Source of the DNA: Pseudomonas oryzihabitans
GTDB lineage: Bacteria > Pseudomonadota > Gammaproteobacteria > Pseudomonadales > Pseudomonadaceae
DNA length: 64,000 nt
Assembly: GCF_006384975.1 (NCBI RefSeq)
Contig: NZ_CP021645.1
Span: forward strand, 4,988,001-5,052,000
Direction: 5' to 3'
Each line of letters starts with the position of its first letter. The first letter of the stretch is position 1. Under the pieces are notes generated by a model that searched no databases, had not been told where the DNA came from, and was given only the letters and a program-made list of their open reading frames with translations. Below are positions 8,453-62,100 of this stretch, piece by piece. Made by a program: the position numbers and the translations under genes.

Positions 8453-9370
8453 ATGATCGAATTTCGCCACCTGCAGACGATCAGTGCCCTACGCGAGGCC
8501 GATAGCCTGATCCAGGCCGCAGAGCGGCTGCATCTCACCCAGTCCGCGCTGTCTCACCAGTTCCGCGAACTGGAGGATCAACTGGGCACTCCGCTGTTCC
8601 TGCGCAAGACCCGGCCCGTGCGTTTCACCAGCGCGGGATTGCGCCTGCTGCAGCTTGCCGACCAGGCGCTACCCCTTTTGCGCGAGGCGCAGCGCGACCT
8701 CGGCCGGCTGGCGGGTGGCCTGGCTGGACGCCTGCATCTGGCCATCGAGTGCCACAGTTGCTATCAGTGGTTGCTGCCGACCCTGGATTCCTTCCGCGCT
8801 GCTTGGCCAGGGGTGGAACTCGATCTGGCCGCGGGGTTCGCCTTCGCGCCGCTGCCCGCGCTGACCCGTGGCGATCTCGACCTGGTGGTGACCTCGGACC
8901 CCGTTCCGCTACCCGGCATCTCCTACGTTCCGCTATTCGCGTACGAGGCGTTGCTGGCCGTCGACAATCGCCATCCGCTGTGCGCCAAGCCCTATGTCGA
9001 GCCCGCGGACCTGAGCGACCAGACCCTCATCACCTATCCCATCGAGCGCCAGCGGCTGGATATCTTCACGTGCTTTCTCGATCCCGCCGACGTGGAGCCG
9101 GCGCACCTACGCACGGCGGAACTCACGCTCATGATGATGCAGTGGGTAGCCTCCGGACGCGGCGTTTGCTGCCTGCCCAATTGGGCGTTGCACGAGTACA
9201 GTGCGCGCGGTTACGTCACGGCGTGCCGCCTGGGTCGTGATGGACTCCAGGCAACCCTGCATGCCGCCGTGCGTAGCGACATGCTGGAACTTCCCTACGT
9301 CAGGGACTTCCTGCTGACCGCCAAGGACATCTCCTTCTCGACCCTGGAGGGCGTTCAGACCGTCGTTTAG
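8453..9370 (+). CDS. metR: LysR-type methionine-biosynthesis regulator MetR
   Basis: This 305-residue LysR regulator begins MIEFRHLQTISALREADSLI, the characteristic MetR N-terminus, with the helix-turn-helix at about residues 20-40 (AERLHLTQSALSHQFRELE) and a periplasmic-binding-like effector domain after residue 90. MetR normally activates metE and other methionine genes in response to homocysteine and represses its own gene. ATG 8453 matches the family N-terminus; the longer frame from 8405 would run through the palindrome at 8412-8434. Divergent adjacency to metE is the usual metE-metR arrangement. Confidence 0.93.
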   Translation: MIEFRHLQTISALREADSLIQAAERLHLTQSALSHQFRELEDQLGTPLFLRKTRPVRFTSAGLRLLQLADQALPLLREAQRDLGRLAGGLAGRLHLAIECHSCYQWLLPTLDSFRAAWPGVELDLAAGFAFAPLPALTRGDLDLVVTSDPVPLPGISYVPLFAYEALLAVDNRHPLCAKPYVEPADLSDQTLITYPIERQRLDIFTCFLDPADVEPAHLRTAELTLMMMQWVASGRGVCCLPNWALHEYSARGYVTACRLGRDGLQATLHAAVRSDMLELPYVRDFLLTAKDISFSTLEGVQTVV

Positions 9371-9379
9371 CGTTGCGCG

Positions 9380-9407
9380 CAGCATGATGTCGAGGTTCAT
9401 CATGCTG
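9380..9407 (+). terminator. Stem-loop after metR
   Basis: CAGCATGATG (9380-9389) and CATCATGCTG (9398-9407) form a perfect 10-bp stem with an 8-nt loop beginning 10 bp after the metR stop. No T-run follows, so it is a weak or factor-assisted terminator or a 3' protective hairpin. Confidence 0.4.
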
Positions 9408-9549
9408 GTGATGTCGAACCCAAACGGCTCGGCCAAGGTAAGGATGTCCGACCATTTTGTAGGACTTGCTTTCGCTGTCCATCCAGCAAGCGCCTTGGGT
9501 TTGACAGGCGAAGGCGGTCGTTTGGCTCGCGGCGTGGTCAAAGCGGCCA

Positions 9550-10707
9550 ATGCATCGGTTCGGAGTCGCCGTGTCGTCCACCCTCGTAACCTTTCCTTCC
9601 CGGTCTTCGTCCTTGCCGCGGTTGCGGGCCTGGGCTGGCGTGCTCGGTGGCCTACTGCTGGTTGGCTGTAGCCTGACGCCCACGGCACCCGGCCCGAGCC
9701 GTTCACCCGCCGAGGTCCGCACCGAATTGCTGCGCCTACTGCCGACCAGCGTGGCGGATCGCCAGGGCTGGGCGAGCGACATCCAGACCGCCTTCAGTGT
9801 CCAGCAGCTCGACCCCTCCACGGAGAATCTCTGCGCCGTACTGGCGGTGGCGGAGCAGGAGTCCACCTACCGGGTCGATCCGCCGGTGCCGGGCCTGGGG
9901 CGCATCGCTCGCGAGGAGATCGACCGCCGCGCGGCTCGCGCCTATGTGCCTCAGCTGCTGGTACGCACGGCGCTGAATCTCAGGTCGCCCACCGGCAAGA
10001 CCTATGCCGAACGCCTGGACAGTGCGCGAACGGAGCGCGAGCTGAGTCTGATCTTCGAGGACTTCATCGCCATGGTACCCCTCGGTGGCCAGTTGTTCGG
10101 TCGCTTCAACCCGGTACGCACCGGCGGTCCCATGCAGGTGAGCATCGATTTCGCCGAGGAACACGCACGCGGCTATCCCTACGAACGCAGCGGTTCCATC
10201 CGCCACGAGGTGTTCAGTCGACGTGGCGGTCTGTATTTCGGGACCCTGCACCTGCTCGGCTATCCCGTGGACTATCCCTCGCCGTTGTATCGCTTCGCCG
10301 ATTTCAACGCCGGCTGGTACGCCAGCCGCAACGCCGCCTTCCAGAGCGCGGTGAGCCGGGCGTCCGGCGTCAAGCTGGCGCTGGACGGCGATCTGGTGGT
10401 GCCGGGCTCGCGGGCCTTGGGCGAGACCGAGCGCGCGGTGAATCGCCTGGCGCCGGAACTGGGCATGAGCGACATCGCCATCCGCCATGATCTGGAAGCG
10501 GGCGATACCGCGGAATTCGCCGAGACCGATCTCTATTCCAAGGTCTATGCCCTGGCCGAGCGCAAGGCCGGACGCACGCTGCCCCGCGCCGTATTGCCGG
10601 GCATCACCCTGGAGAGTCCGAAGATCACCCGGAAGCTGACCACCGCCTGGTTCGCCCAGCGGGTCGAAGAGCGTTGGCAGCGTTGCCTGGGGCGCGCCCG
10701 CCGCTGA
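9550..10707 (+). CDS. DUF1615 family lipoprotein
   Basis: The 385-residue protein matches the DUF1615 lipoprotein family as I recall it (motifs AVAEQESTY, RFNPVRTGGPMQVSIDFAE and FADFNAGWYASRNAAFQ). A lipobox, LLVGC with Cys at residue 40, places it in the envelope after processing. The AEQESTY segment and glycine/aromatic spacing recall lytic-transglycosylase-like folds, but a catalytic role is unproven. The signal region is longer than usual, so a downstream start such as a TTG near 9613 is possible; no strong ribosome site separates the options. It appears monocistronic. Confidence 0.75.
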   Translation: MHRFGVAVSSTLVTFPSRSSSLPRLRAWAGVLGGLLLVGCSLTPTAPGPSRSPAEVRTELLRLLPTSVADRQGWASDIQTAFSVQQLDPSTENLCAVLAVAEQESTYRVDPPVPGLGRIAREEIDRRAARAYVPQLLVRTALNLRSPTGKTYAERLDSARTERELSLIFEDFIAMVPLGGQLFGRFNPVRTGGPMQVSIDFAEEHARGYPYERSGSIRHEVFSRRGGLYFGTLHLLGYPVDYPSPLYRFADFNAGWYASRNAAFQSAVSRASGVKLALDGDLVVPGSRALGETERAVNRLAPELGMSDIAIRHDLEAGDTAEFAETDLYSKVYALAERKAGRTLPRAVLPGITLESPKITRKLTTAWFAQRVEERWQRCLGRARR

Positions 10708-49523: not shown

Positions 49524-50390
49524 CTGCTGGAGGAAGCCCACCACGGCCTTGATGCGCGGCGCATAGCGCAGGTCGTGGTGCACGCTCAGCCAGAGGTCGC
49601 GACGGACCTCCACCTCCTGGGCGAGGACGCGCTGTAGACCGAAGCGCTGGGCGCCGGCGAATTCGGGCAACAGCACCAGGCCGCTACCGGCGGCGGCGGC
49701 GAACATCTGCGCCAGCATGCTGCTGGACTGGAACACCGTCTGGGCGTCGGGGACGGCTTCTTCCAACCAGCGGACCGCCTCGATCTGCACCAGGTCGTCG
49801 ATGTAGCCGACGAATTCGTGGGCGCTCAGCTCAGCCGCCGTGCGCGGCTCGCCCAGGCGTGCCAGGTAGGGAGCCGAGGCGTACAGGTGCAGGGCGAAGC
49901 GCCCCAGATGCTCCACGTCCAGGCCGCTGCCGCTGGGCTGGAAGAAGCTCAGGAAGATATCGGCTTCGCGGCGCGTGACGTGCAGTTGCTGGGTGGAGGT
50001 GACCAGCTCCAGGGTGATGCGTGGATGGCTGAGGGTGAAGCGCGGCAGGTGCTGGGTGAGATAGAGCGAGGCGATGCCTTCCATGGTACCGATGCGGACC
50101 GGCCCGGCGACCTCCCGGGCCTGGCCACCGAGGCTTGTCAGCGCGGCGGCGTAGGCACTGTCCATGGGGTCGGTGGCGGCCAGGACCTGGTGACCCAGGG
50201 TGTTGAGCTGCAAGCCCTTGGGCGTGCGCTCGAACAGGCTGGCGCCCAGGGCCTGTTCCAGGTGCGCTAGGCGCCGGCTGACGGTGGATTGGTCGATCTT
50301 CAGCCGCTTGGCGGCCCGGGCCAGGCTGCCGGCGCGGGCCAATTCGAGGAAGATGCGCAGGTCGTCCCAGTTCAGGTGTTTGGCGAGCAT
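49491..50390 (-). CDS. LysR-family transcriptional regulator
   Basis: A 299-residue LysR regulator: HTH at about residues 19-40 (LARAAKRLKIDQSTVSRRLA) and an effector domain. Its 3' end overlaps the 3' end of the convergent nitrilase gene by 33 bp. Being convergent rather than divergent, it may regulate the upstream nitrilase-symporter genes or an unlinked target. Confidence 0.85.
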   Translation of the reverse strand: MLAKHLNWDDLRIFLELARAGSLARAAKRLKIDQSTVSRRLAHLEQALGASLFERTPKGLQLNTLGHQVLAATDPMDSAYAAALTSLGGQAREVAGPVRIGTMEGIASLYLTQHLPRFTLSHPRITLELVTSTQQLHVTRREADIFLSFFQPSGSGLDVEHLGRFALHLYASAPYLARLGEPRTAAELSAHEFVGYIDDLVQIEAVRWLEEAVPDAQTVFQSSSMLAQMFAAAAGSGLVLLPEFAGAQRFGLQRVLAQEVEVRRDLWLSVHHDLRYAPRIKAVVGFLQQLFASDPLYAY

Positions 50391-50530
50391 GGTTTAGGAT
50401 CGGCGGTGGAGGTCGCGTCCAGCTTGGCAGCGTCGCGCTCGTCGGCCAAGTATCCTGTGCCGCTTGGGTGCGCCAAAGTGGCGCTTGGCTACCTTCCGCC
50501 ATTTCCCGCCATGTCGAAGAGGATCGCTAG

Positions 50531-51049
50531 ATGCGCCGGCCCGGGGTTTCCTATCGTCTTCACCACCTGGGTATCCCCACCCAGGAGCCCTTGCCGGGCG
50601 AGCGCTACGCGGCTGGGGTCGGGATGTATACCAGCGATGACCTCAGTGGCCCGGTGCCTATTCAGTGGCACAGGTTCACGCCTGATTCCCCCCTGCATCC
50701 GCTGATCAAGACCCAGCCCCATGTGGCCTACCAGGTCAGCGACCTGGCGGCGGCGCTGGTCGGCCAGGAGGTCATCCTCGGGCCCTATGAGCCCATCGAG
50801 GGTTTCCGGGTCGCCATGATCGACCACGGCGGCCTGCCCATCGAATTCATCGAGACTGAACTGAGCGACGAGGTCGTCTGGAGTCGCGCGCGCAGTGGCC
50901 GCCAGGCACCGCTGTATCAGGCCTCAGCCGAGGGAGAGGGCGCGCAGGCCCAGGCCGACGGAGGCCAGGCCAATCAGGCAAAGGGCGGCGCTAGGCAGGT
51001 GCTGGGTGAGTCGACTCAGGCGGGTCAGCCGATGCATATGGCCGGCTAG
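50531..51049 (+). CDS. VOC/glyoxalase-like protein with long C-terminal overlap
   Basis: A 172-residue frame whose first 135 residues form a VOC-like protein: YRLHHLGIPTQEPLPGERY, QPHVAYQVSDLAAALVGQEV and IDHGGLPIEFIET. The last 40 or so residues run antisense to the lysE 3' end and look compositionally like an antisense translation (AEGEGAQAQADGGQANQAKG), so the true gene may have lost its stop and now reads into lysE. The ATG at 50531 has GAGGAT upstream. Substrate unknown. Confidence 0.6.
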   Translation: MRRPGVSYRLHHLGIPTQEPLPGERYAAGVGMYTSDDLSGPVPIQWHRFTPDSPLHPLIKTQPHVAYQVSDLAAALVGQEVILGPYEPIEGFRVAMIDHGGLPIEFIETELSDEVVWSRARSGRQAPLYQASAEGEGAQAQADGGQANQAKGGARQVLGESTQAGQPMHMAG

Positions 51050-51517
51050 ATAGCCATAGGCGACCAGCACCAGCAGGTCGATGGCGGCCCAGATCGCCAG
51101 TAGCACCGGGGCCTGTTGCCCGAGCGGTGCCTGCAGGGAAATGAACGCCGGCAGGAAGGCCACCAGGAAGAGGATGTCCTTGGGGTTGGACAGGCCCACC
51201 AGGAGGGCGCGCCGAAAGCTGCCGCGTCGAGCGCTCGACAGGTCGTCGGCCTCGGCCTTGAGCAGGCGAATACCCAGCCAGAGCAGATAGAGACCACCGA
51301 GGATCTGGCCGGCCAGCAGCAGCTTCGGGTCGATGCCGATGGCCAGGTGGATCAGGCCCAGCGCCAGTAGCAACAGGACCTGGGCGGACAGCACGCCGCC
51401 GAGGATCGTCCACCAGGGAAAGCCATGGCGACCGTCGGCGACCACCAGGGCGACGATGGGGCCTGGCGAGGAGATCAGCAGGAAGACGGTGATGGCGAAG
51501 CTGAGATATTCACTCAT
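50924..51517 (-). CDS. LysE/RhtB-family amino-acid exporter
   Basis: A 197-residue inner-membrane exporter with six TM segments; LLISSPGPIVALVVADGRHG and GGLYLLWLGIRLLKA and GLSNPKDILFLVAFLPAF are characteristic of RhtB/LysE proteins, which expel amino acids using proton motive force. Its ATG overlaps the hydroxylase stop (ATGA, 51514-51517), so hydroxylation and export are coupled. The likely cargo is the hydroxylated amino acid, or another toxic amino acid of the neighbouring cluster. Confidence 0.9.
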   Translation of the reverse strand: MSEYLSFAITVFLLISSPGPIVALVVADGRHGFPWWTILGGVLSAQVLLLLALGLIHLAIGIDPKLLLAGQILGGLYLLWLGIRLLKAEADDLSSARRGSFRRALLVGLSNPKDILFLVAFLPAFISLQAPLGQQAPVLLAIWAAIDLLVLVAYGYLAGHMHRLTRLSRLTQHLPSAALCLIGLASVGLGLRALSLG

Positions 51518-52419
51518 GGCGCATAGGGCCTCAAGCCGATGATCCGCGACGGATCGCCCGTCTCGCCGATCAACTGGCGCTGGTGGGAGATGGCGAAGGT
51601 GCGCTGGATCCAGCGGTCGCTACCGTCAAACCGGGCCTGGAAGGCGCTGCGCGCATGGGCCGCGCGGCGATTGTCGATGATCAGCAGGTCGCCCGCCGCG
51701 AGGCGCACCGGCTGGGCGACACTCCAGGCGATCTCCTTGATTTCCTCGATCAGCCGTTGCATCCGGGCCGAGCGGGCGAGCATGAAGTGCGGATCGAATC
51801 TGAGGTAGGGCTTGCCGCGCTGGCCATAGAGCATTGGCCGGTGCCGGCCCAGGTCGATCCGGCAATTCTTTTCGCTCAGGCAGTAGTCGGAGAGAAAGTT
51901 GAAGGGCTCCGCGAACAGCAGCTCGGTGGTTTCGGCGTCGACCTCCTCGAGCATCTTGTCTACCGAGGCGATGTAGGTGATGGCATCGTCGTTCGGTGCG
52001 GCCCTCAGGCAGAGCAGCGCCAGGAAGTCCGGCGGTACCTCGTGGAAGGCGTTCTCGGTATGCAGGTCGAGTTCGGTGTCGAAGCTGTCCGAGGACAGCT
52101 GGCGGGCGTTGGCGGCATGGGGAAAGAAGTTGTTGATCAGGCTGCCGTCGGATTCCTGGGGATAGCCGATGGGATCGCCGAGCAGCGCCGTGGCCTGGAG
52201 CAGCAGCAATTCGCTGCGGTAGTCCGGCTTGGCCAGGCTCTGGCGGTCAGCGGGTGTGGCCGGGACGCTGCCAATGTCCTGATTCGGCAGCAGCAGGAAG
52301 CCCTGGGGATTGCCGAAGACGCGGAAATGGAGGATGTCGCTGATGGCGGCGGCCGAGAGCTCACCTTGACGGAGGGCGCTGTCCAGCAGGGCGTCGAAGG
52401 AGACTGATCCCAAATACAT
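51514..52419 (-). CDS. Fe(II)/2-oxoglutarate amino-acid hydroxylase, clavaminate-synthase-like
   Basis: A 301-residue TauD/clavaminate-synthase-superfamily enzyme. Metal ligands are His120, Glu122 (HTE) and His255; Arg269, exactly 14 residues after the distal His, should bind 2-oxoglutarate. HTE rather than HTD, with the PYLRFDP segment, is the pattern of free-amino-acid hydroxylases such as VioC (arginine) and AsnO (asparagine). It should hydroxylate a basic or polar L-amino acid using O2. It is translationally coupled to a LysE exporter and diverges from a GcvA-type LysR, and lies near the SznF-like operon. The substrate is not determinable by sight. Confidence 0.78.
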   Translation of the reverse strand: MYLGSVSFDALLDSALRQGELSAAAISDILHFRVFGNPQGFLLLPNQDIGSVPATPADRQSLAKPDYRSELLLLQATALLGDPIGYPQESDGSLINNFFPHAANARQLSSDSFDTELDLHTENAFHEVPPDFLALLCLRAAPNDDAITYIASVDKMLEEVDAETTELLFAEPFNFLSDYCLSEKNCRIDLGRHRPMLYGQRGKPYLRFDPHFMLARSARMQRLIEEIKEIAWSVAQPVRLAAGDLLIIDNRRAAHARSAFQARFDGSDRWIQRTFAISHQRQLIGETGDPSRIIGLRPYAP

Positions 52420-52554
52420 ACTGTGTCTCGAAGAACCAGGCAGTCATGACGCGCCAAGGCGTCAAGGACGGCCATCATCCGGTGCTGGACGCAGGGGTAA
52501 AAACGGATAAAACTGGGTGGAAGGATGATTCAAACTCATTATCGAGGACCAAGG

Positions 52555-53475
52555 ATGTCCCGCCTCCCGCCGCTCTATGCGTTGCGTGCCTTCGAAAGTG
52601 CGTCCCGGCAACTGTCCTTCACCCGTGCGGCGCAGGAACTGAACATCACCCAGAGCGCGGTCAGCCGTCATATCAAGACGCTGGAGCAGGACTTGGGCTG
52701 TCTGCTGTTCGAGCGCCGGGGCCCCAGCCTGAAGCTGACCCCTACCGGGCTGATCCTGGCGAAGGACCTGAGCTCGGCCTTCGCCGACATGCAGGGCGTC
52801 TGCGATCTGGTGCGCAGCGGCCGTGGCTGTCTGAGGCTCAAGGCGCCTTCCACCCTGACCATGCGCTGGTTGATGGCCGCCATCGAGGCGTATCGGGTGG
52901 CGACGGGGGAAAATCGGGTCCAGTTGACCAGCGTCTGGATGGACGTCGACTTCGTCGACTTTCGCTCCGAGCCCTATGACTGCGCGGTGATCCTGGCCGA
53001 CGGTGAATTCCCCAGCGATTGCGCTAGCGTACGGCTGTTCGATGAGTGGCTGGTGCCGGTCTGCGCGCCGCGTTATCAGCGTGCCTGCGGTGGCGAGGAT
53101 CCGATCTTCGGTGGGGACGGGCTGCTGCACGCCTCCCACGATTGCCGCGACTGGCGCCTCTGGCTGGACCGGATCGGTCGTCTGGCCGAGGTGAACTGGC
53201 ATGCCGGCAAAAGATTCGAAACCCTGGACGCGGGCATCTCGGCCGCGGTCCAGGGCTTCGGGGTGGCGATCGGTGACCTCTCCCTGGTCCAGGATCAGAT
53301 CGCCTCCGGGCAACTGGTGTTCGCCAATCGCGCCGTGGTTCGCTCAGGGCTGAGCTACTACCTGGTCTGGCCCAGACGCAGTGAGGCCCATGACGTCCTC
53401 GCCGGGTTGCGGGACCACCTGGGCGCGGTGGCGCCGGTCTTGCCCAGGCTGGAAGGGCTGATCTTCCTGGATTGA
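52555..53475 (+). CDS. LysR regulator, GcvA type
   Basis: A 306-residue regulator beginning MSRLPPLYALRAFESASRQL, with HTH at about residues 22-42 (FTRAAQELNITQSAVSRHIK), the GcvA/TrpI-like class. GAGGA lies 8 nt before ATG 52555; an upstream ATG at 52525 is too close to its site. It diverges from the hydroxylase-lysE operon across 135 bp and precedes the SznF-like operon, so it may control both. Confidence 0.85.
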   Translation: MSRLPPLYALRAFESASRQLSFTRAAQELNITQSAVSRHIKTLEQDLGCLLFERRGPSLKLTPTGLILAKDLSSAFADMQGVCDLVRSGRGCLRLKAPSTLTMRWLMAAIEAYRVATGENRVQLTSVWMDVDFVDFRSEPYDCAVILADGEFPSDCASVRLFDEWLVPVCAPRYQRACGGEDPIFGGDGLLHASHDCRDWRLWLDRIGRLAEVNWHAGKRFETLDAGISAAVQGFGVAIGDLSLVQDQIASGQLVFANRAVVRSGLSYYLVWPRRSEAHDVLAGLRDHLGAVAPVLPRLEGLIFLD

Positions 53476-53530
53476 CGCGTCGCACTCCTTTGCGCGCGGG
53501 CTCGCCGACGCTGAATAGCTAGCAAAGCGG

Positions 53531-53567
53531 CTAGTGAAATTCACTAGAGGATGCTCGTTTTCACTAG
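53531..53567. promoter_or_regulatory. Operator-like palindrome plus half-site before the SznF-like operon
   Basis: CTAGTGAA (53531-53538), 1-nt centre, TTCACTAG (53540-53547) is a perfect palindrome; a further TTCACTAG lies at 53560-53567, exactly 20 bp (two helical turns) from the last half-site. The spacing suits cooperative binding by the Lrp or LysR protein of the region. The operon start codon lies 84 bp beyond. Confidence 0.6.
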
Positions 53568-53650
53568 GAAAACAGGCGTTTTCATTATTCAAGGCATGCG
53601 AATTAACCGAAATAATAGTTTGGCTAATTTGCCTGCAAGGATAGTGGAAT

Positions 53651-55015
53651 ATGCTCGCGATACACTTGGAAGATGCTCTTTTGGAGAGCGCGCTTAACCT
53701 TGTGAAAGGTCATCCTCTTCTCGGGCAGCCGGACAGTTTCCTGGTGGACGGCCCTTATCAGCGGCCGGTCAGACCGCAAGATATTACTCTCGCTCAATTG
53801 AAGACTTGCCTACGCCAGGATAGTTTCGGCAAGCCCAGTTACCTCGCCGCGCAACGGCTATTGCTCAATCGCTATGAACAGGATCTCGTCTTTCTACCGA
53901 CGGGACGTTCCCTCGCGCTGGATCAATTCAACAGTTTCTATAGCGGCGAGTTGCGCATGGCCCTGGAGTTGCTGCGGCCGACGCTGGAACGGCATGCCTT
54001 CGGCTGGCTGAACGACGAGATCACCCTGTCCGGCGACTGGGACCTGGACAGTTTCGTGGCCTATACCGACGAGGTGCTGCAGCGGATCCGCCAGGCGCCG
54101 TCGGGCCTGGTCAAGGCCATCCGCAATGCCAAAAATCCCCGGGAGGCAGCCAGGTACTACCTGGTGCAGTGCTCGGGCGATTTCCTCAGCGAAGCCTCGG
54201 CGATGGGGCGCAATGTCCTGGGTAACTTCGGGCCCTATACCAGCGAACTGTTTAAGATCTATATCGATGAATACGGCTACGGTGTCCACGAGAAGAAGCA
54301 CAGCACCATCTTCGAACGACTGATGGTGGCCGCCGATCTCGATCCCCATCTGCATACCTACTGGCAGTTCTATACGGCGTCTTCGCTGTCGCTGATCAAT
54401 TACTTCCATTATGTCTCGCTGGATCACAGCAAGTTCTTCCGTTATCTGGGCGCCATGTATTTCACCGAGGCCAGTCTGGCCATCGTGACCCGTAATCAGG
54501 CCGAAGCGGTCAAGGCCGGATTCGGCGCTGACTTCGATACGCTGTATTTCGATGAGCACAATCATATCGATCAGCATCATGGGCGCATGGCGCTGGAAAA
54601 GTTGATCGTGCCCTTGGTGCAACAGCATGGCGTGCAGATCCTGCCGGAGATCCTGCGCGGTTTCGAAGAGTTTCGCCTATTGCAGGACGTGGCGGACGAG
54701 GATCTGTTCCGCAACCTCGAATGGCAGGACAACCTGCCCAAGTACCGGGACCTGGCCCGGGAACATTTTCCCAAAGGCCACGAGGATCGCCACAGCGCCG
54801 TCTTCGTCGAGCCGCAGCACGAGTTGTCGGTACTGCACACCCATCCCATGGCGGAGTTGTTCAGCGTGCGCTCCGGCCTGATCGAACTGGTCGCGGCGCC
54901 GAACCAATCCATCCTGCTCAAGGAGGGCGAAAGCATCGTCATCCCCAAGGGCGTCCTCCATGGGACCCGGGTGTTGTCCGAGAACTGCTGCTATCTGGTG
55001 ACGGGGCTGGAGTAG
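53651..55015 (+). CDS. SznF-like heme-oxygenase-type diiron oxygenase fused to a cupin
   Basis: A 454-residue two-domain metalloenzyme. The central HDO domain carries putative iron ligands Glu181, Glu207, His217, Glu273, His303, Asp307 and His310. These match the ligands I recall for SznF (189, 215, 225, 281, 311, 315, 318) with a constant offset of 8. The cupin domain has HTHPMAELFSVRSG and GESIVIPKGVLH, with His396, His398 and His437 corresponding to SznF 407, 409 and 448 (offset 11). SznF N-hydroxylates and rearranges N-methylarginine into an N-nitroso product for streptozotocin. Here it is first in a five-gene operon. Substrate is not shown; simple N-hydroxylation is an alternative. Confidence 0.85.
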   Translation: MLAIHLEDALLESALNLVKGHPLLGQPDSFLVDGPYQRPVRPQDITLAQLKTCLRQDSFGKPSYLAAQRLLLNRYEQDLVFLPTGRSLALDQFNSFYSGELRMALELLRPTLERHAFGWLNDEITLSGDWDLDSFVAYTDEVLQRIRQAPSGLVKAIRNAKNPREAARYYLVQCSGDFLSEASAMGRNVLGNFGPYTSELFKIYIDEYGYGVHEKKHSTIFERLMVAADLDPHLHTYWQFYTASSLSLINYFHYVSLDHSKFFRYLGAMYFTEASLAIVTRNQAEAVKAGFGADFDTLYFDEHNHIDQHHGRMALEKLIVPLVQQHGVQILPEILRGFEEFRLLQDVADEDLFRNLEWQDNLPKYRDLAREHFPKGHEDRHSAVFVEPQHELSVLHTHPMAELFSVRSGLIELVAAPNQSILLKEGESIVIPKGVLHGTRVLSENCCYLVTGLE

Positions 55016-55018
55016 AAG

Positions 55019-55363
55019 ATGAAGATCTTTACCGTTGGTAGGCACAGCTTCAATCGGGTACGCGCCGGGCAGGTCGACTATTTCGCCTTCGACCGTAATG
55101 GCAGCTATGCCCTGTTGCCCAGTCAATGCCCGCATCGCGGCGGCCCTCTGCACCTGGGCGCGGCCTCGGCGTGCAAGGCCAAGGTGGTCTGCCCCTGGCA
55201 CGACAACGCCTATGCCGTGGCACGTCTGGAGCCCAAGGGGTTGCCGGTGATCCGTACCGGCGACACGGTCAGCTTCGTCACCCGCGAGGACGAGGCCCTG
55301 TTGTGGAACGAGTTCCTGCCGGGCGTCTCGAGCGGGGCGGCGTCGCGGGAGACTTCGTCATGA
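55019..55363 (+). CDS. Rieske-type [2Fe-2S] ferredoxin
   Basis: A 114-residue small Rieske protein with cluster ligands CPHRG (first Cys-x-His) and CPWHD (Cys-x2-His), separated by 16-18 residues. Being single-domain and soluble, it should pass electrons, most plausibly to the diiron domain of the preceding enzyme. It begins 4 bp after that gene's stop and its own stop overlaps the MFS start (ATGA), so it is tightly coupled in the operon. Confidence 0.88.
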   Translation: MKIFTVGRHSFNRVRAGQVDYFAFDRNGSYALLPSQCPHRGGPLHLGAASACKAKVVCPWHDNAYAVARLEPKGLPVIRTGDTVSFVTREDEALLWNEFLPGVSSGAASRETSS

Positions 55364-56538
55364 AGCCCGCCGTCATTCGTTTCTATGGTGTGGTGGCGCT
55401 GTCCGCCCTGGCGGACATGGCGCTGCTGATCGGCCTGATCTGGGCGGCACTGCGGGTCACCGGTTCGCCGCTGCTGCTGGGTACGCTACTCGGGGTCAGC
55501 GCCCTGATTCCCTTCTCGATCCGGCGCAGTTTCCCGGCGCTGGACAGCACCCGGCTGTCGGTGCGCCGCGTGGTCCTGCTGCGTGGCGGCGTGTATGGCG
55601 GCCTGCTGCTGATCGCGCTGGCGGGCCTGCTGCAGACGCTGGCCGGGTTCGTGGTAGCGGCGGTGCTGGTGGGCGTGCTCAATTACATGACCACCAGCGC
55701 CTACGAGGCCGCCAATACCAAGCAGGTGCTGGCGGGCCTGCTGGACAGCCAGCGCTCGGCGCGCTGGATGCAGACCGCCTTTCAACTGGGCGCCTTTTCC
55801 GGGGCCTTCCTGGGCGGCCTGGTGCTCGACCGGGCGTCGCTCGATGTGCTGGTCTATGCCGTGGCCGGCCTGGCGTTGCTGACGGCTGGCGTGGCTGCCG
55901 TGCTGCCCGCCGACCGGCAGCCACCGGCGCCCGTGGTGCGGCGTGACGCCAGTGCGGCCCCTGACGGGCTGGGCGACGTGGGTGGGCGCGGCGTCACGCT
56001 GCTGTGTCTGGCCTTGGGCATGATCGGCTTCCATATTGGCGCCTTCAACACCCTGATTCCGCTGGTTTACCAGCGCCTGCACGGCTGGAGTTCGGCGGAC
56101 TTCGGCCTGGCCAGCGGCATCGCCGGGGTGGGCGCCTTCCTGGCCGCCATCCTGCCCTGGCCACGTGGCCGGGTACTGCTCTGGGCCGGGCTGCTGGTGG
56201 TGGGCGACTATCTGCTCGCCTTCAGTCCGCTGCCCTGGGTCTCCATGGGGATCTGCCTGCTGATCGGCTTCGGCATCAATACGCTGCGCATCGATCTACG
56301 CCAGCAGATGATCGAGGCCGCGACCACCACGGAGCAGGCCAATCGGCTGGCGGCCACCAGCTCCGTCTATTTCATCTTCCTACAGTCGGCAGCGCCCCTC
56401 GGCGTCGGCCTGCTGTGCAGCGAGTATGCCTTCGGCCCAGGCGCCGCTCCCCACGTCTTCGTCGGGGTGGGTGGCCTGCTGCTCGGCGCCGTATTGCTGA
56501 CCCGCATGCATCGTCCGCGTGCCGCACTCGCTCAATGA
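55360..56538 (+). CDS. MFS transporter (probable product exporter)
   Basis: A 392-residue major-facilitator protein with about 12 TM segments, arranged as two sets of six around a loop near residues 185-205 (DRQPPAPVVRRDASAA). Short charged loops such as DSQRSARWMQ follow TM4. Its ATG overlaps the Rieske stop (ATGA). Within a biosynthetic operon it is the likely exporter or self-protection pump for the product. No substrate motif is visible. Confidence 0.82.
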   Translation: MKPAVIRFYGVVALSALADMALLIGLIWAALRVTGSPLLLGTLLGVSALIPFSIRRSFPALDSTRLSVRRVVLLRGGVYGGLLLIALAGLLQTLAGFVVAAVLVGVLNYMTTSAYEAANTKQVLAGLLDSQRSARWMQTAFQLGAFSGAFLGGLVLDRASLDVLVYAVAGLALLTAGVAAVLPADRQPPAPVVRRDASAAPDGLGDVGGRGVTLLCLALGMIGFHIGAFNTLIPLVYQRLHGWSSADFGLASGIAGVGAFLAAILPWPRGRVLLWAGLLVVGDYLLAFSPLPWVSMGICLLIGFGINTLRIDLRQQMIEAATTTEQANRLAATSSVYFIFLQSAAPLGVGLLCSEYAFGPGAAPHVFVGVGGLLLGAVLLTRMHRPRAALAQ

Positions 56539-56548
56539 GATCAAGAAC

Positions 56549-57790
56549 ATGAATCCGGCTAGAGACATCGTCATCATCGTAGATCCCTTCTCCACGGGGG
56601 CGCTGTACGCCCCCCTGTTCCGCGCCAGGGGATATCGCTGCTATGCGGTCCTGTCGTCATCCTCGGTCCCGGCGCGCTTCGTCGACGGCTTTTCCGGGCA
56701 CGCGTTCGAGGGCCGCGAGTTGCTGAGCCTGGCGGAGTGCCTGAAGGTCATTCCGGCGGCCCGTGTGCGGGCCGTGGTGGCGGGCAGCGAACTCGGCGTC
56801 GAGGCCGCGGAGCGGCTCGCCTTGCATTTCGGCGTCGCTGGCAACGACCCGGCCACCCTGGCGTGGCGGCGCGACAAGTTCGAGATGCAGCAGCGACTCG
56901 CGGCCGCGGGACTGCGCAGCATACCCACGGTCAAGTTGAGCGAGGCGGGCGACACACGGCGGGCCCTGGCGCAACTGGGGCAGGGGGAGCGCTTCGTGAT
57001 CAAGCCGAACAACTCCTTCATGACCGATGGCGTCGAGTTCATCGAGGGCCGCCAGGCGCTCGAACAGGCGCTGCGCTGGTTGGAATGGGGGCGGATCAAT
57101 GCGCTGGGGGTACGCAACAGCGGCTATCTCGTGCAGGCCTTCGTCTCCGGCCCGGAATATGTGGTCGATCTGGTGGCTTCCGCGGCGGGTACCCTGGTCG
57201 TCGGTCTGAGTCGCTATCGCAAGGCCGAGCACAATGGTTCCCGCTTCGTCTACGAGGGTCTCGAGGTGCTCGACCCGCGCGACGAACGCTTCGCGGACCT
57301 GATCGCCTATGCCCGGGCCTGCAGTAAGGCCCTGGATATCGGCTTCGGGCCGGTGCACATGGAGTTGCTCGACAGCGCCGACGGTCCGGTGATGATCGAG
57401 GTAGGTGCCCGCTTGCACGGGGGCGTGGCGCCCAGTCTGTTCCAGGAGTGCTACGCCCCGGATCTGCTGTCGGTCGCGGTCGAGGCCTATCTGGGCTTCG
57501 AGCCCGCGTCGGCGGCGAGCCGGCTGATCCGCCCGGGACGCATCGTCTTCCTGATCAACCGCCGCCTGGGCGCGCGCCTGGCGACGGACGAGCAGCGTTT
57601 CGCGGCGTTGCAGGCCATCCCGAGTTTTCGCGGCTTCAAGCCATTCGCCGAGCCCGACGAAGCCTTGCCGCTGACGCGTGACCTGGCCAGCTGTCCGGGT
57701 ATCGTCTGGCTGGCAGCTGCCGGGGAAGAGGAACTCGACCGGGACGAGCGCCAGGTGCGGCAACTGTTCGAGGGGTGTCTCGGTGAGTGA
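56549..57790 (+). CDS. ATP-grasp ligase
   Basis: A 413-residue ATP-grasp enzyme: N-terminal domain (about 1-110), nucleotide-binding loop RFVIKPNNSFMTDGV, GPEYVVDLV, and the metal site HMELLDSADGPVMIEVGARLHGG. This family joins a carboxylate (via acyl-phosphate) to an amine, as in L-amino-acid ligases that make dipeptides. It could couple the N-oxidised amino acid to a second amino acid. ATG 56549 is 11 bp past the MFS stop; GTG 56519 would overlap the MFS gene. The next gene overlaps its end by 8 bp. Confidence 0.82.
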   Translation: MNPARDIVIIVDPFSTGALYAPLFRARGYRCYAVLSSSSVPARFVDGFSGHAFEGRELLSLAECLKVIPAARVRAVVAGSELGVEAAERLALHFGVAGNDPATLAWRRDKFEMQQRLAAAGLRSIPTVKLSEAGDTRRALAQLGQGERFVIKPNNSFMTDGVEFIEGRQALEQALRWLEWGRINALGVRNSGYLVQAFVSGPEYVVDLVASAAGTLVVGLSRYRKAEHNGSRFVYEGLEVLDPRDERFADLIAYARACSKALDIGFGPVHMELLDSADGPVMIEVGARLHGGVAPSLFQECYAPDLLSVAVEAYLGFEPASAASRLIRPGRIVFLINRRLGARLATDEQRFAALQAIPSFRGFKPFAEPDEALPLTRDLASCPGIVWLAAAGEEELDRDERQVRQLFEGCLGE

Positions 57791-58463
57791 CGTCCAGGCC
57801 ATGCTGGCCCGATTGCAGCCCCGCGCCCTGTATCTCGAAGGCGTGCGGGTCTTCGAGACCGAGGTCTATCGGCCGTCGATGCTCAGGCAACTCGACTATC
57901 TGCGGGAGAACTACGCGGCCTTCGTCGGCAGTCCCCACGTCAGGGGCTACGGGACGCAACTGAGTCTGCTCGGCTTTCCCGAGACCAAACCGGCCAATCT
58001 CAAGCTGATCGATCGCTGCCTTGAACAGGGACCGCTGTCCATCAACAACGTCGTGGATGCCTACAACGTGGCGGCGCTGACCTATGGCGCAAGCCTGGGC
58101 GGCCATGCCCTGGAGCAACGGCCTGCGGCGCTGGAGCTGCGCCTGGCGCGCCCTGGCGAGCGGATCCTGCCGCTGTTCCAGAGCCGGACGCTGCCCATAG
58201 CCGCCGGTAGCCTGGTGTATGGTATTGGCGCGGAGGTGTTGGCCTGCATCGGCAGCCGCGACGTGGACGCCGATGGCTTTCGCATCACGGAGGCGACCCA
58301 GGGGCTACTGCTGGTCTCTCTCGGCCATGCCGACACCAGCGCGGAGTTCAACGCCCAGGTACTGGACCTGGCGCTGGAGCTGGTGAAGATAACCTGCCCC
58401 GACGTTCAGGCCTGGCCGGTACCCGTCACTATTGGTGTTGCCAGTGTCGCAGCACCGGCATGA
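57783..58463 (+). CDS. B3/B4 (PheRS editing-type) domain protein
   Basis: A 226-residue protein of the B3/B4 domain family, the tRNA-editing fold of phenylalanyl-tRNA synthetase beta. SINNVVDAYNVAALTYG is the characteristic segment, as in free-standing B3/B4 proteins, which are candidates for trans-editing of misacylated tRNA or binding amino acids. The start is GTG 57783, with GAGGGG 7 nt upstream and 8 bp overlap with the ATP-grasp gene; ATG 57801 lacks a site. In this operon it may remove a toxic non-standard amino acid from tRNA. It overlaps the convergent lrp-type gene by 35 bp. Confidence 0.75.
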   Translation: MSDVQAMLARLQPRALYLEGVRVFETEVYRPSMLRQLDYLRENYAAFVGSPHVRGYGTQLSLLGFPETKPANLKLIDRCLEQGPLSINNVVDAYNVAALTYGASLGGHALEQRPAALELRLARPGERILPLFQSRTLPIAAGSLVYGIGAEVLACIGSRDVDADGFRITEATQGLLLVSLGHADTSAEFNAQVLDLALELVKITCPDVQAWPVPVTIGVASVAAPA

Positions 58464-58869
58464 TGACGACGCTGCGCACCAGGCCGGTCGCCAGGACGGT
58501 TTCCTTGAAGTCGACCACGTTGCCGATGGTGACGTGGTCGTAGCGCACCAGCATGTCGACGTTGCCGAACAGCGAATAGGCTTCGAGCACGCCCGGGTGA
58601 TCCTTGATGCTGTCCCAGACCTGGGAGCAGACGTCGGTGCCGTTGTTGACGAACTGCATGAACGAGGTGTGGCCCGGGCCACAGTGGCTGTCCGCGGCGC
58701 AACGCACGGTATAGCCGAGGATGGTCCCCTGGGCTTCCATCCGCTCGATGCGGGATTCGACGGCGGTACGGGATTTGTGAACGCGCCGGGCGATCTCGGA
58801 AATACTGGTGCGGGCGTCGGCCGTCAGGATCTGGAGAATCTTCTGGTCAATGCTATCAAGGCCGGACAT
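58429..58869 (-). CDS. Lrp/AsnC-family transcriptional regulator
   Basis: A 146-residue Lrp/AsnC regulator: N-terminal HTH (LDSIDQKILQILTADARTSI, then EIARRVHKSRTAVESRIERM) and a ligand-binding RAM domain. Such proteins sense amino acids. It converges on the SznF-like operon, overlapping it by 35 bp, and is a plausible sensor of its substrate or product. ATG 58869 matches the family length; a much longer frame to 59286 is rejected because its extra sequence is not conserved-looking. It could bind the palindrome at 53531-53567. Confidence 0.85.
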   Translation of the reverse strand: MSGLDSIDQKILQILTADARTSISEIARRVHKSRTAVESRIERMEAQGTILGYTVRCAADSHCGPGHTSFMQFVNNGTDVCSQVWDSIKDHPGVLEAYSLFGNVDMLVRYDHVTIGNVVDFKETVLATGLVRSVVIMPVLRHWQHQ

Positions 58870-59108
58870 TGGTGAACTCGCTCGTAGTGCATCCCGGACG
58901 CGTCCCGGGGATTCCTCCATGAAGAAACACACAGGCAGGGCCTGGCGTGCGCGCCGGCAGTCTAAGGCATAGCACCGGGCACGAGAACCGCACCCCGACG
59001 CAATGCCCTCCGGCGCGGCGTGCCGTTTCGTGGGGTACGGCGGGAAGGCGCGTGCCTCTGCGAGCCTTGGAGCTGCGGCGCTATCCCGCGAGGAGCGTCG
59101 CCGCGGGC

Positions 59109-62100
59109 TCAGTACACATCCTTCAGATAGCGCTTCTGCTCGCTCATCCCGCGCACATAGTCGGCAGCGGCCTCTTCGCTGAGCTGGCCGTGGCGGGCCA
59201 CCACCTGGCGCAGGGCCTGGTCGACGTCCTTGGCCATGCGGCTGGCGTCGCCGCAGACATAGACGCGGGCGCCGTCCTGCAGCCAACGCCAGACCTCGGC
59301 GCCGCGTTCCCTCAGGCGATCCTGCACATAGATCTTCTCGGCCTGGTCGCGGGAGAAGGCCAGGCTGAGTTCGCTCAGGGTGCCATCGTGCTGAAAGGCT
59401 GCCAGTTCGTCGCGATAGTAGAAGTCGTGGGCGGCGTGCTGTTCGCCGAAGAACAGCCAGTTGCGGCCCTTATCGCCACGGGCACGGCGTTCGTGGAGGA
59501 AGCCACGGAAGGGCGCGATGCCGGTGCCGGGGCCGATCATGATCAGGGGCACGTCGCCTTGCTCGGGCAGGCGGAAATGGCGCGACGGCTGGATGTGGAC
59601 CTCGGTGGTGGCGTCTTGCAGGCGATCGGCGAGGAAGGTCGAGGCCACGCCCTTGCGGGTGCCGTAGCGCACCGCCGAGACGGTGAGGTGCACCTGGCCG
59701 GCGTGGGCCAGGGGGCTGGAGGCAATGGAATAGAGTCGCGGTTGCAGGCGCTTGAGGCTGGCGAGCAGTTCCTCGGCGGCGAGACGCGCGGGGAAGCTGG
59801 CCAGGACGTCGGCCAGTTGCCGGCCCCAGAGCCAGCTTTTCAATTCGTCGCGGGCCGCCAGCAGGGCGCGGCAGTCGGCATGGCCGCTGCGTTCGGCCAC
59901 CAGGGCCAGGGTTTCGTTGCTGGGACGGGCGATTTCGTAGTGCTCGGCCAGCGCCTGGCGCAGAGACAGCTCGCCGACCTTGGGCACCGTGACCGGCTGT
60001 TCACCGTCGAGCCCGGTCAGGGTCAGGATCTCGTCCACCAGCTCGGGGCAGTTGCGCGCCCTTACGCTGAGGGCGTCACCGGCCTGATAGGCGAGGGGCT
60101 GCTCGGCCTCGAAGCCGAACAGCCGGACCTCCTTGTTGGAGCCGGCGCCGTTGAGTCTTTGATTGATGACCAGCCGCGCCGGCACCGGGGCTGGGCGATT
60201 CGCCGGGGCGGTGCTGGCGGCGATGCTGCTCGCGGCAGGCGATAGCAGCTTTTGCAGCCCGGCCAGCCAGGCGTCGGCGCGGTCGTGACCGTCGGCATCG
60301 CAGTCGAGTCGCGCGCAGAGGCGGCGGGCGCCGAGTTCGGCCAGGCGGGTATCGAGGCGTTGGCCGTGGCCGCAGAACTGGTCGTAGGTGGAGTCGCCCA
60401 GGGCCAGCACCGCGTAGTCCAGCTCGGCGAGCGAGGTGTCGAGGCGGCTGAGCCCTTGCCAGAAGGCCTGGCCGTTGTCCGGGGCCTCGCCGTCGCCAAA
60501 GGTGCTGCTGACCAGCAGGGCGCGCCGGGCACCGCTCAGGCGCTCCACCGCATAGGCAGCCATGTCGTGCAGCTCCACCGCCAGCCCCGCTTCCCGCAGT
60601 TGGGTGGCGCAGCGCTCGGCCAGGGCTTCGGCGCTGCCGGTCTGGGAGGCCCAGAGCACCACCAGGTCGGCCGGAGCCGTGGGGGCCGGGGCCAGACTGG
60701 CGCTCTGGCTTTCGGGCAGGCGGCTGAACAGCCCGGCGAGCAGGCCGTCGAGCCAGAGGCGGGTGTCGGCGGCCAACGGCGCCTGGACCGGCAGGCAGGG
60801 TACGCCCTGGAGGCCACCGTCGCGCAGGCCGTCCAGGAAACCGGCCAGGTAGGTGCGTTCGGCGGCGCTGAGTTGAGGGCGTACCGCGGTCGCCACGCCA
60901 GTAAGTTCGGCCAGGCGCTCCAGGGCGGTCTGGCGGGTGCTCTCGGTGACGGCTTGGTCGATGGGGAGCTGGTGGTGAGGGATGGTGGCGACGCGGGTCA
61001 GGCGTACGGCGCAGACCTTGAGTTCCGGCTGTTGGGATAGGGGGTCGATGGCATCGCTGGTGACGGCGTTGATGGCCAGGTCCGCGCCGTGTACGTCGGC
61101 CCAGTGGAAGGGGGCGAAGCAGTTGCCGGGCTGGACCCGGTCGCTGATCGTCACCGGCAAGACGGCGCGCCCACGGCGGGAGGTGATTTCCAGGCGGTCG
61201 CCGTCCTTGAGTTCCAGCGCCTGGGCATCCTGGGGATGCACCTCGACGAAGGGTGCCGGGTTGAGGCGGTTGAGGGCGGCGATCTTGCCGGTCTTGGTCA
61301 GGGTGTGCCACTGGTGCTGCAAGCGGCCGGTGTTGAGCACGAAGGGGTAGTCGTCATCGGGCAATTCCGCCGGATCCAGGTGCGGGCGGGCGAAGAATTG
61401 CGCCTTGCCGCTGGGGGTGGCGAAGTTGAGCGCGGTCGGTTCGCCCGACTCGTCCAGGCGCAGGGTCTGGCTGCGGCCGTCGTTGAGATAGCGGATCGGC
61501 TGGCGCGGAGCGCTCTCCGTGCTGGAGCAGGGCCATTGCAGCGGGGTTTCGCGCAGGCGCGCATGGCTGGCGCCACGGAGGTCGTAGCCGGTCTGGGGAT
61601 TGTGGAAGTGCGTGATCTCCTCGAACACCTCGGCGGCCGAGGCGTAGGCGAAGTGCTCGCCATAGCCCATCGCGCAGGCCACGTCGGCGATGATCCGCCA
61701 ATCGGCCCGGGCCTCGCCGGGCGGGCTGACTGCCTGTTGCGCCAGGGTCAGGTTGCGCTCGGAATTGATCTGCACCCCATCGGCCTCGGCCCAGAGGGCG
61801 CCGGGCAGGAGGATGTCGGCGTAGCTGTTGGTCTCGGTGTCGAGGAAGGCGTCCTGGGTGATCACCAGCTCGGCGGCCTGGAGGCCCTTGATGACGGTGG
61901 CGCGATTGGCCACGCTGGCGACCGGGTTGGTGCAGATGATCCAGCAGGCCTTGACGGTGCCGGCGGCCATGTCCTCGAACAGGGCGACGGTGCCCTTGCC
62001 CAGGCGGGTATGCAGGGTGCCCTCCGGTACGCCCCAGGCCTGCTCGACGAAGCTGCGGTCGGCGGCGGACAGCAGGCTGCGCTGGCCGGGCAGGCCGGGG

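Follow-up and report, generated by a model that had tools for sequence, protein, structure and literature searches.

An SznF homologue in a six-gene island

The window analysed here, that is, the whole stretch of 64,000 nucleotides from Pseudomonas oryzihabitans (4988001-5052000 of a single 5.36-Mb contig), contains an operon headed by a gene for a homologue of SznF, the N-nitrosating enzyme of the streptozotocin pathway. Four genes stand nearly gapless downstream of it and encode a Rieske protein, an MFS transporter, an ATP-grasp ligase and, last, a B3/4 protein. The sznF homologue has the coordinates given in a first-pass annotation of the sequence, and the downstream genes are those described there, with refined positions for the MFS and ATP-grasp genes (Table 1). 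This annotation described a five-gene unit, but the unit also holds a convergent Lrp/AsnC gene and a conserved palindrome. All four congeners that share the flanks (L090-L093) align to the window up to 53475 and resume at 59107 or 59108, with 12-27 bases between the two flanks. We therefore regard the segment between these points as the acquired block. It contains only six genes, namely the five operon genes and the regulator, together with the promoter.

Table 1. Features of the island, with positions in the window
Feature	Position	Strand	Basis
Genomic island, whole unit	53476..59106	.	between LysR stop and flanking oxidoreductase-like gene
Palindrome CTAGTGAAATTCACTAG, proposed Lrp/AsnC operator	53531..53547	.	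conserved upstream of sznF
SznF homologue (HDO + cupin), 454 aa	53651..55015	+	SznF alignment, Pfam domains, ligand columns
Rieske [2Fe-2S] protein, 114 aa, proposed HDO electron donor	55019..55363	+	PF00355, E 3e-7
MFS transporter, 392 aa, proposed exporter	55360..56538	+	PF07690 barely over cut-off; position conserved
ATP-grasp ligase, 413 aa, proposed dipeptide ligase	56549..57790	+	PF13535
Freestanding B3/4 aminoacyl-tRNA editing protein, 226 aa, proposed self-immunity	57783..58463	+	
Lrp/AsnC-type regulator, ~146 aa, convergent	58429..58869	-	PF13404, E 1.5e-15; overlaps B3/4 gene end

The first protein of the operon carries the Pfam domains Haem_oxygenas_2 (E 8.5e-31) and Cupin_2 (E 6.8e-8). 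Using phmmer, its residues 6-450 align with residues 17-461 of SznF, nearly over the full length (E 2.2e-109, 43-44% identity), and in the PDB only the three SznF sequences match it strongly (E 2e-109, again over residues 6-450). The first-pass annotation had claimed that the metal ligands reproduce the spacing of SznF with offsets of 8 and 11. This was borne out, since all ten residues superpose on their counterparts: 181/207/217/273/303/307/310 of the diiron site on SznF 189/215/225/281/311/315/318 (offset 8), and the cupin histidines H396/H398/H437 on 407/409/448 (offset 11). In addition, Y448 corresponds to SznF Y459. According to the accessible parts of the respective papers, the HDO diiron set consists of three histidines and four carboxylates (PMC13108848), and H407, H409, H448 and Y459 are the essential residues of the SznF cupin (PMC11705231). 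The window protein has the equivalents of both sets, and the HDO and cupin ligand columns are invariant across 20 sequences, SznF among them. This match lies far beyond chance, and the alignment supports a member of the SznF family in which neither metal site is impaired.

When named genomes were scanned for two peptide patterns, 93 encoded relatives were found, of which the best 80 were kept. Together with the window and L082 they make up 82 loci, taken with flanks of up to 10 kb, some of which are ended by contig edges. E181, H217, H303, D307 and H310 are present in 82/82 and E273 in 81/82; position 207 is Glu in 78 and Asp in 4. The cupin histidines H396, H398 and H437 are found in 75, 75 and 78 loci, respectively, and the tyrosine in 79. 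Pseudomonas frederiksbergensis SI8 (L023) has Lys at position 273 with the rest of the operon intact, so that its enzyme is possibly inactive. Seven relatives (L063, L064, L067, L071, L078, L079 and L081) have kept the diiron set, with Glu207 changed to Asp in four, and have lost at least two cupin histidines; six of the seven have an SznE-like methyltransferase match. From their residues, these enzymes probably perform N-hydroxylation without N-N bond formation.

Editing and methyltransferase genes beside sznF

The operon had been called unfamiliar in the first-pass annotation. This is only partly right, as the class was predicted in outline in 2010 (see below) and 28 of the 80 fetched loci carry the genes for SznF, Rieske, MFS, ATP-grasp and B3/4 in this order and on the same strand, the hosts being Pseudomonas, Chitiniphilus, Jeongeupia, Reinekea and 'gamma proteobacterium L18'. 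Two Photobacterium loci agree with this order except that a tRNA_edit gene fills the B3/4 slot (L028 by Pfam, L029 by tblastn). In L028, a 2Fe-2S ferredoxin (PF00111; 13956-14282) stands between the ATP-grasp and tRNA_edit genes, besides the Rieske protein.

Companion genes were searched with tblastn within 10 kb of sznF (E <= 1e-5), using queries from a few loci. A Rieske relative is present in 80 of the 82 loci. An SznE-like methyltransferase was found in 37 and an editing gene in 33 (31 B3/4, 2 tRNA_edit), while no locus has both. Relatives of Ada, MGMT or Oxygenase-NA occur in 22 loci, every one of them methyltransferase-positive. The 31 operon loci (the 28, L028, L029 and L075) gave neither a methyltransferase nor an alkylation-repair match. 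All 30 loci with 63-93% identity to SznF are methyltransferase-positive, and the window stands elsewhere in the tree. Six alignment columns (30, 220, 242, 280, 333 and 355) differ between methyltransferase-positive and editing-positive sequences; these groups are largely separate clades and no inference was drawn. L069 (9917-15116), L074 and L076 represent a further SznF-operon architecture, in which a PLP-dependent decarboxylase is encoded together with a different methyltransferase and a Rieske protein; L069 also has a LysE exporter match.

The statement that no methyltransferase lies nearby is correct. In the whole genome, the SznE-like query (from L036) gave only two matches of ~22 bits, none near the sznF homologue, and with this as the best evidence we rejected a methyltransferase encoded elsewhere. 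A different picture was found in two relatives. G006, a member of the same genus with a distant sznF relative (32% identity), has the order sznF-Rieske-methyltransferase-MFS-abhydrolase-ATP-grasp (L096:2712-12919) and divergent repair-type genes, namely Ada, an HhH-GPD glycosylase, PF13532 (AlkB type) and Oxygenase-NA. The set in G221 (L097:2650-12572) resembles it and includes Oxygenase-NA, HhH-GPD and an AraC/MGMT protein. Judged by their genes, these are streptozotocin-like clusters within the family of the window, with four and three alkylation-repair-type genes. Using tblastn, no B3/4 or tRNA_edit gene was found in either stretch. Genome-wide, the B3/4 profile had no match in G221 and one weak match in G006, in a 798-residue frame of the size of PheRS-beta. 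This contrast between loci suggests that a methylated product probably often goes with DNA repair and an unmethylated one often with tRNA editing.

The B3/4 gene, to which the first-pass annotation gave no role, is the most informative gene of the operon. CtdA, a freestanding B3/4 protein, is the canavanyl-tRNAArg deacylase (PMC10018355; PDB 9f7e, 9mkl). The window protein is likewise freestanding, has a similar length and a CtdA-like predicted fold of the aminoacyl-tRNA editing type, and shares the motif VVDxYN. It differs from CtdA in that the identity in structural alignments is 13-19%, in GGH replacing GGE, and in its position in a biosynthetic operon, whereas CtdA is encoded beside canavanine degradation genes. 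Among 398 genomes of the family, an SznF match of at least 500 bits was found in 10 (next best 233, 231 and 124 bits; any match at E <= 0.001 in 33). The B3/4 profile A2 reached at least 279 bits in exactly these 10 genomes, the next best being 70 bits. Some A2 match occurs in 120/398 genomes, many in frames of ~800 residues as expected for PheRS-beta. Some of the sequences behind A2 came from sznF-linked loci of this family, whose scores are thereby raised; the presence in the same 10 genomes is unaffected.

Ligase, regulator and neighbouring genes

The ATP-grasp protein matches the model of the dapdiamide synthase DdaF over residues 5-405 (E 1e-35), with 123 bits against an equivalog cut-off of 840, and the L-amino acid ligase 30vh in the PDB over the same residues (E 1e-38). 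Dipeptide formation is likely because of this nearly full-length resemblance to ATP-grasp L-amino acid ligases. In Reinekea L005, a second ligase of the ATP-grasp type (8636-9943), which weakly matches an L-amino acid ligase C-terminal domain, is encoded directly upstream of sznF, where it may serve to make a longer peptide.

The palindrome CTAGTGAAATTCACTAG lies ~100 bases upstream of the sznF start. With up to two mismatches, TAGTGAAWTTCACTA stands 121-229 bases ahead of the start of the sznF match in 25 of the 31 operon loci, where 15 copies are exact, 5 differ at one position and 5 at two; it is missing in L003, L004, L005, L028, L029 and L075. One unrelated match turned up elsewhere in the 1.58 Mb scanned, and 0 in one shuffle. 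The window's own genome has a single match at up to one mismatch and four more at two, versus three for a reversed control pattern. By tblastn, 28 of the 80 fetched loci have an Lrp/AsnC relative in the vicinity of sznF, and in L016 and L018 the gene lies upstream of sznF. We infer that the Lrp/AsnC protein binds the palindrome. For the PF13404 search the frame was taken as 58432-58872, with three bases ahead of the ATG included. In Pseudomonas sp. MYb60 (L075:14028-15375), an open reading frame that by eye resembles an EamA-type transporter adjoins the Lrp gene. No Rfam family reached the gathering threshold in 50000-60000, and promoter and terminator scans of 53400-59150 gave no more than shuffled sequences.

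Upstream of the island, a VioC/GntD/clavaminate-synthase-like dioxygenase (51514-52419, minus strand) was considered as a cluster member. Four congeners have this gene (85-94% identity) without sznF, and the same LysR neighbour accompanies it in 4/12 congeners searched, independently of the island. Including the window's own, 5/13 genus genomes searched carry it, and this sznF is found only in the window's own genome. Among the 81 fetched loci besides our own (L001), the dioxygenase recurs only in L069, at 26%. We dropped this arginine-hydroxylase-like neighbour from the model because the island excludes it. LysR (52525-53475) and an open reading frame that is LysE-like by eye (50924-51517) were rejected as well, the island edge lying after the LysR stop.

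Possible product, immunity and relation to known systems

We propose, with about an even chance of being right, that the island makes a methyl-free N-hydroxy or N-nitroso antimetabolite of the arginine type, which is probably exported as a dipeptide and against which tRNA editing would give immunity. The SznF homologue would N-hydroxylate the guanidine of arginine, or of a close analogue, twice with electrons from the Rieske protein, and its cupin domain would form the N-N bond, yielding an unmethylated N-hydroxy/N-nitroso amino acid of the citrulline or graminine type. The ATP-grasp ligase would join this to a second amino acid, and export of the resulting dipeptide would fall to the MFS protein. 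Hydroxylated or nitrosated arginine analogues might be charged onto tRNA, and the B3/4 protein would deacylate this tRNA and protect the producer. The Lrp/AsnC protein may sense an amino acid and control the operon at the TAGTGAAWTTCACTA site. The parts of this model differ in their probability. Judged by homology, N-oxygenation and N-N chemistry are likely, and the N-nitroso, N-hydroxy or diazeniumdiolate product suggested before fits with this. Arginine as the substrate is somewhat favoured by the precedents of SznF and graminine and by the link to CtdA. A dipeptide product is fairly probable in view of the ligase. That B3/4 editing is the immunity of the producer also seems rather likely, since a second editing family can replace B3/4, the gene co-occurs with sznF, and loci with a methyltransferase often have DNA repair instead.

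Several observations weigh against this reading. Neither a methyltransferase nor an editing match was found in 12 of the 82 loci (L027 among them ends at a contig edge), and no DNA-repair match accompanies the methyltransferase in 15 of the 37 loci that have one, so that the rule of immunity following chemistry is incomplete. On the SznF tree of 82 rows, in which several long branches (e.g. L082, L066) are placed unsurely, the editing label requires 4 changes, against 2 for the methyltransferase label. With so few changes the loci are not independent, and lineage explains much of the split between the companion genes. Moreover, position 108 is an invariant His in the B3/4 proteins linked to sznF and a Glu in both solved CtdAs; canavanyl-tRNAArg therefore need not be their substrate.

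The same exchange of His108 for Glu would suit a B3/4 protein that is itself a biosynthetic enzyme or a hydrolase, which releases an amino acid or acts on the dipeptide, within otherwise unchanged chemistry. The gene is probably co-transcribed with the biosynthetic genes, as its start overlaps the ATP-grasp stop. Nevertheless, we consider such a role unlikely: a tRNA_edit protein of another family fills the slot in Photobacterium, as expected if editing is the shared function, and B3/4 adjoins sznF in the cyanobacterium L033 and in Halovibrio L047, where no ATP-grasp or MFS match was found. L075 counts on both sides, as it retains SznF, Rieske, MFS, ATP-grasp and Lrp without B3/4. The editing gene is thus not strictly required there, and the biosynthetic genes remain without it. 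In another reading, the cupin step would be dispensable in vivo and the product would be a dipeptide of N-hydroxyarginine without an N-N bond. N-hydroxyarginine resembles canavanine, the CtdA substrate, and the seven relatives with lost cupin histidines indicate that some members of the family may get by with N-hydroxylation as their only reaction. In the window protein, however, no cupin ligand is lost and the tyrosine is intact, which makes this reading quite improbable.

Graminine offers a further alternative. Free L-graminine or a graminine dipeptide could act as a C-diazeniumdiolate metal ligand or nitric oxide donor rather than as an antimetabolite of translation. As far as the accessible parts of the papers go, the clusters for gramibactin (grbD/grbE) and chalkophomycin (chmM/chmN) share with the island an SznF-related cupin and an N-N bond derived from arginine (PMC11177257, PMC6771848, PMC9679993), and graminine arises from unmethylated arginine via an N-delta to N-omega bond (PMC9679993), in agreement with the lack of a methyltransferase here. 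On the other hand, these clusters contain nonribosomal peptide synthetases (NRPSs) and a separate N-oxygenase, and their HDO part is degenerate or lacking; GrbD is described as sharing homology with SznF in the cupin domain alone and as acting together with GrbE (PMC9679993, accessible parts). In the window protein both domains are intact, and the six island genes include no NRPS, no YqcI/YcgG heme N-oxygenase and no siderophore receptor. As graminine alone would also leave the editing gene unexplained, we regard it as a doubtful alternative to the antimetabolite proposed above.

For the comparison with streptozotocin, L040 and L041 (SznF 93% and 92% identical) stand in for the named producer. 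Our operon shares with them the SznF-family enzyme with all ligands and the Rieske and ATP-grasp neighbours. However, its enzyme, at 43-44% identity, is not an orthologue from the szn clade, and an SznE-like arginine N-methyltransferase beside SznF, a second ATP-grasp gene, an abhydrolase and matches to Ada, MGMT or Oxygenase-NA are absent. An MFS gene replaces LysE, and the B3/4 gene and Lrp regulator are extra. The view that the operon lies outside the streptozotocin pathway is thus upheld.

The 2010 prediction was made by Iyer and co-workers. Their class consists of an oxygenase-cupin, one or two ATP-grasp ligases, a Rieske protein and a possible efflux transporter, and our operon fits the second of the three operon themes in the accessible parts of that paper (PMC2922099). 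There, the B3/4 domain appears in the abbreviation list only, so that an operon with this gene had probably come to the notice of the authors. In contrast to the present analysis, these parts give no editing or immunity role, no regulator site and no methyltransferase contrast. The chalkophomycin study mined 426 SznF homologues, 135 of them besides SznF in szn-type clusters, and its accessible parts do not describe the present operon class (PMC11177257). In the open-licence literature, judged mainly by listings, we recognised no account of the ATP-grasp/Rieske class beyond PMC2922099 and no proposal that tRNA editing makes the host of a biosynthetic cluster resistant to its own product.

Tentatively, we suggest a widespread uncharacterised operon class in which an unmethylated arginine-derived N-hydroxy or N-nitroso amino acid would be charged onto tRNA and the producer would be immune by trans-editing, through B3/4 or an interchangeable tRNA_edit protein. 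Immunity would then follow chemistry, a methylating product being paired with DNA-alkylation repair and an unmethylated one with tRNA proofreading. If this is true, Pseudomonas and other proteobacteria would have a further route to N-N-bonded or N-hydroxylated amino-acid antibiotics, and aminoacyl-tRNA editing would be a self-resistance mechanism of a biosynthetic cluster. A class of B3/4 proteins would gain a predicted substrate, and freestanding B3/4 or tRNA_edit genes beside oxidative enzymes could serve as a search handle for other amino-acid antimetabolites. Moreover, the immunity gene would predict the product, DNA repair pointing to an alkylating compound and tRNA editing to an amino-acid mimic.

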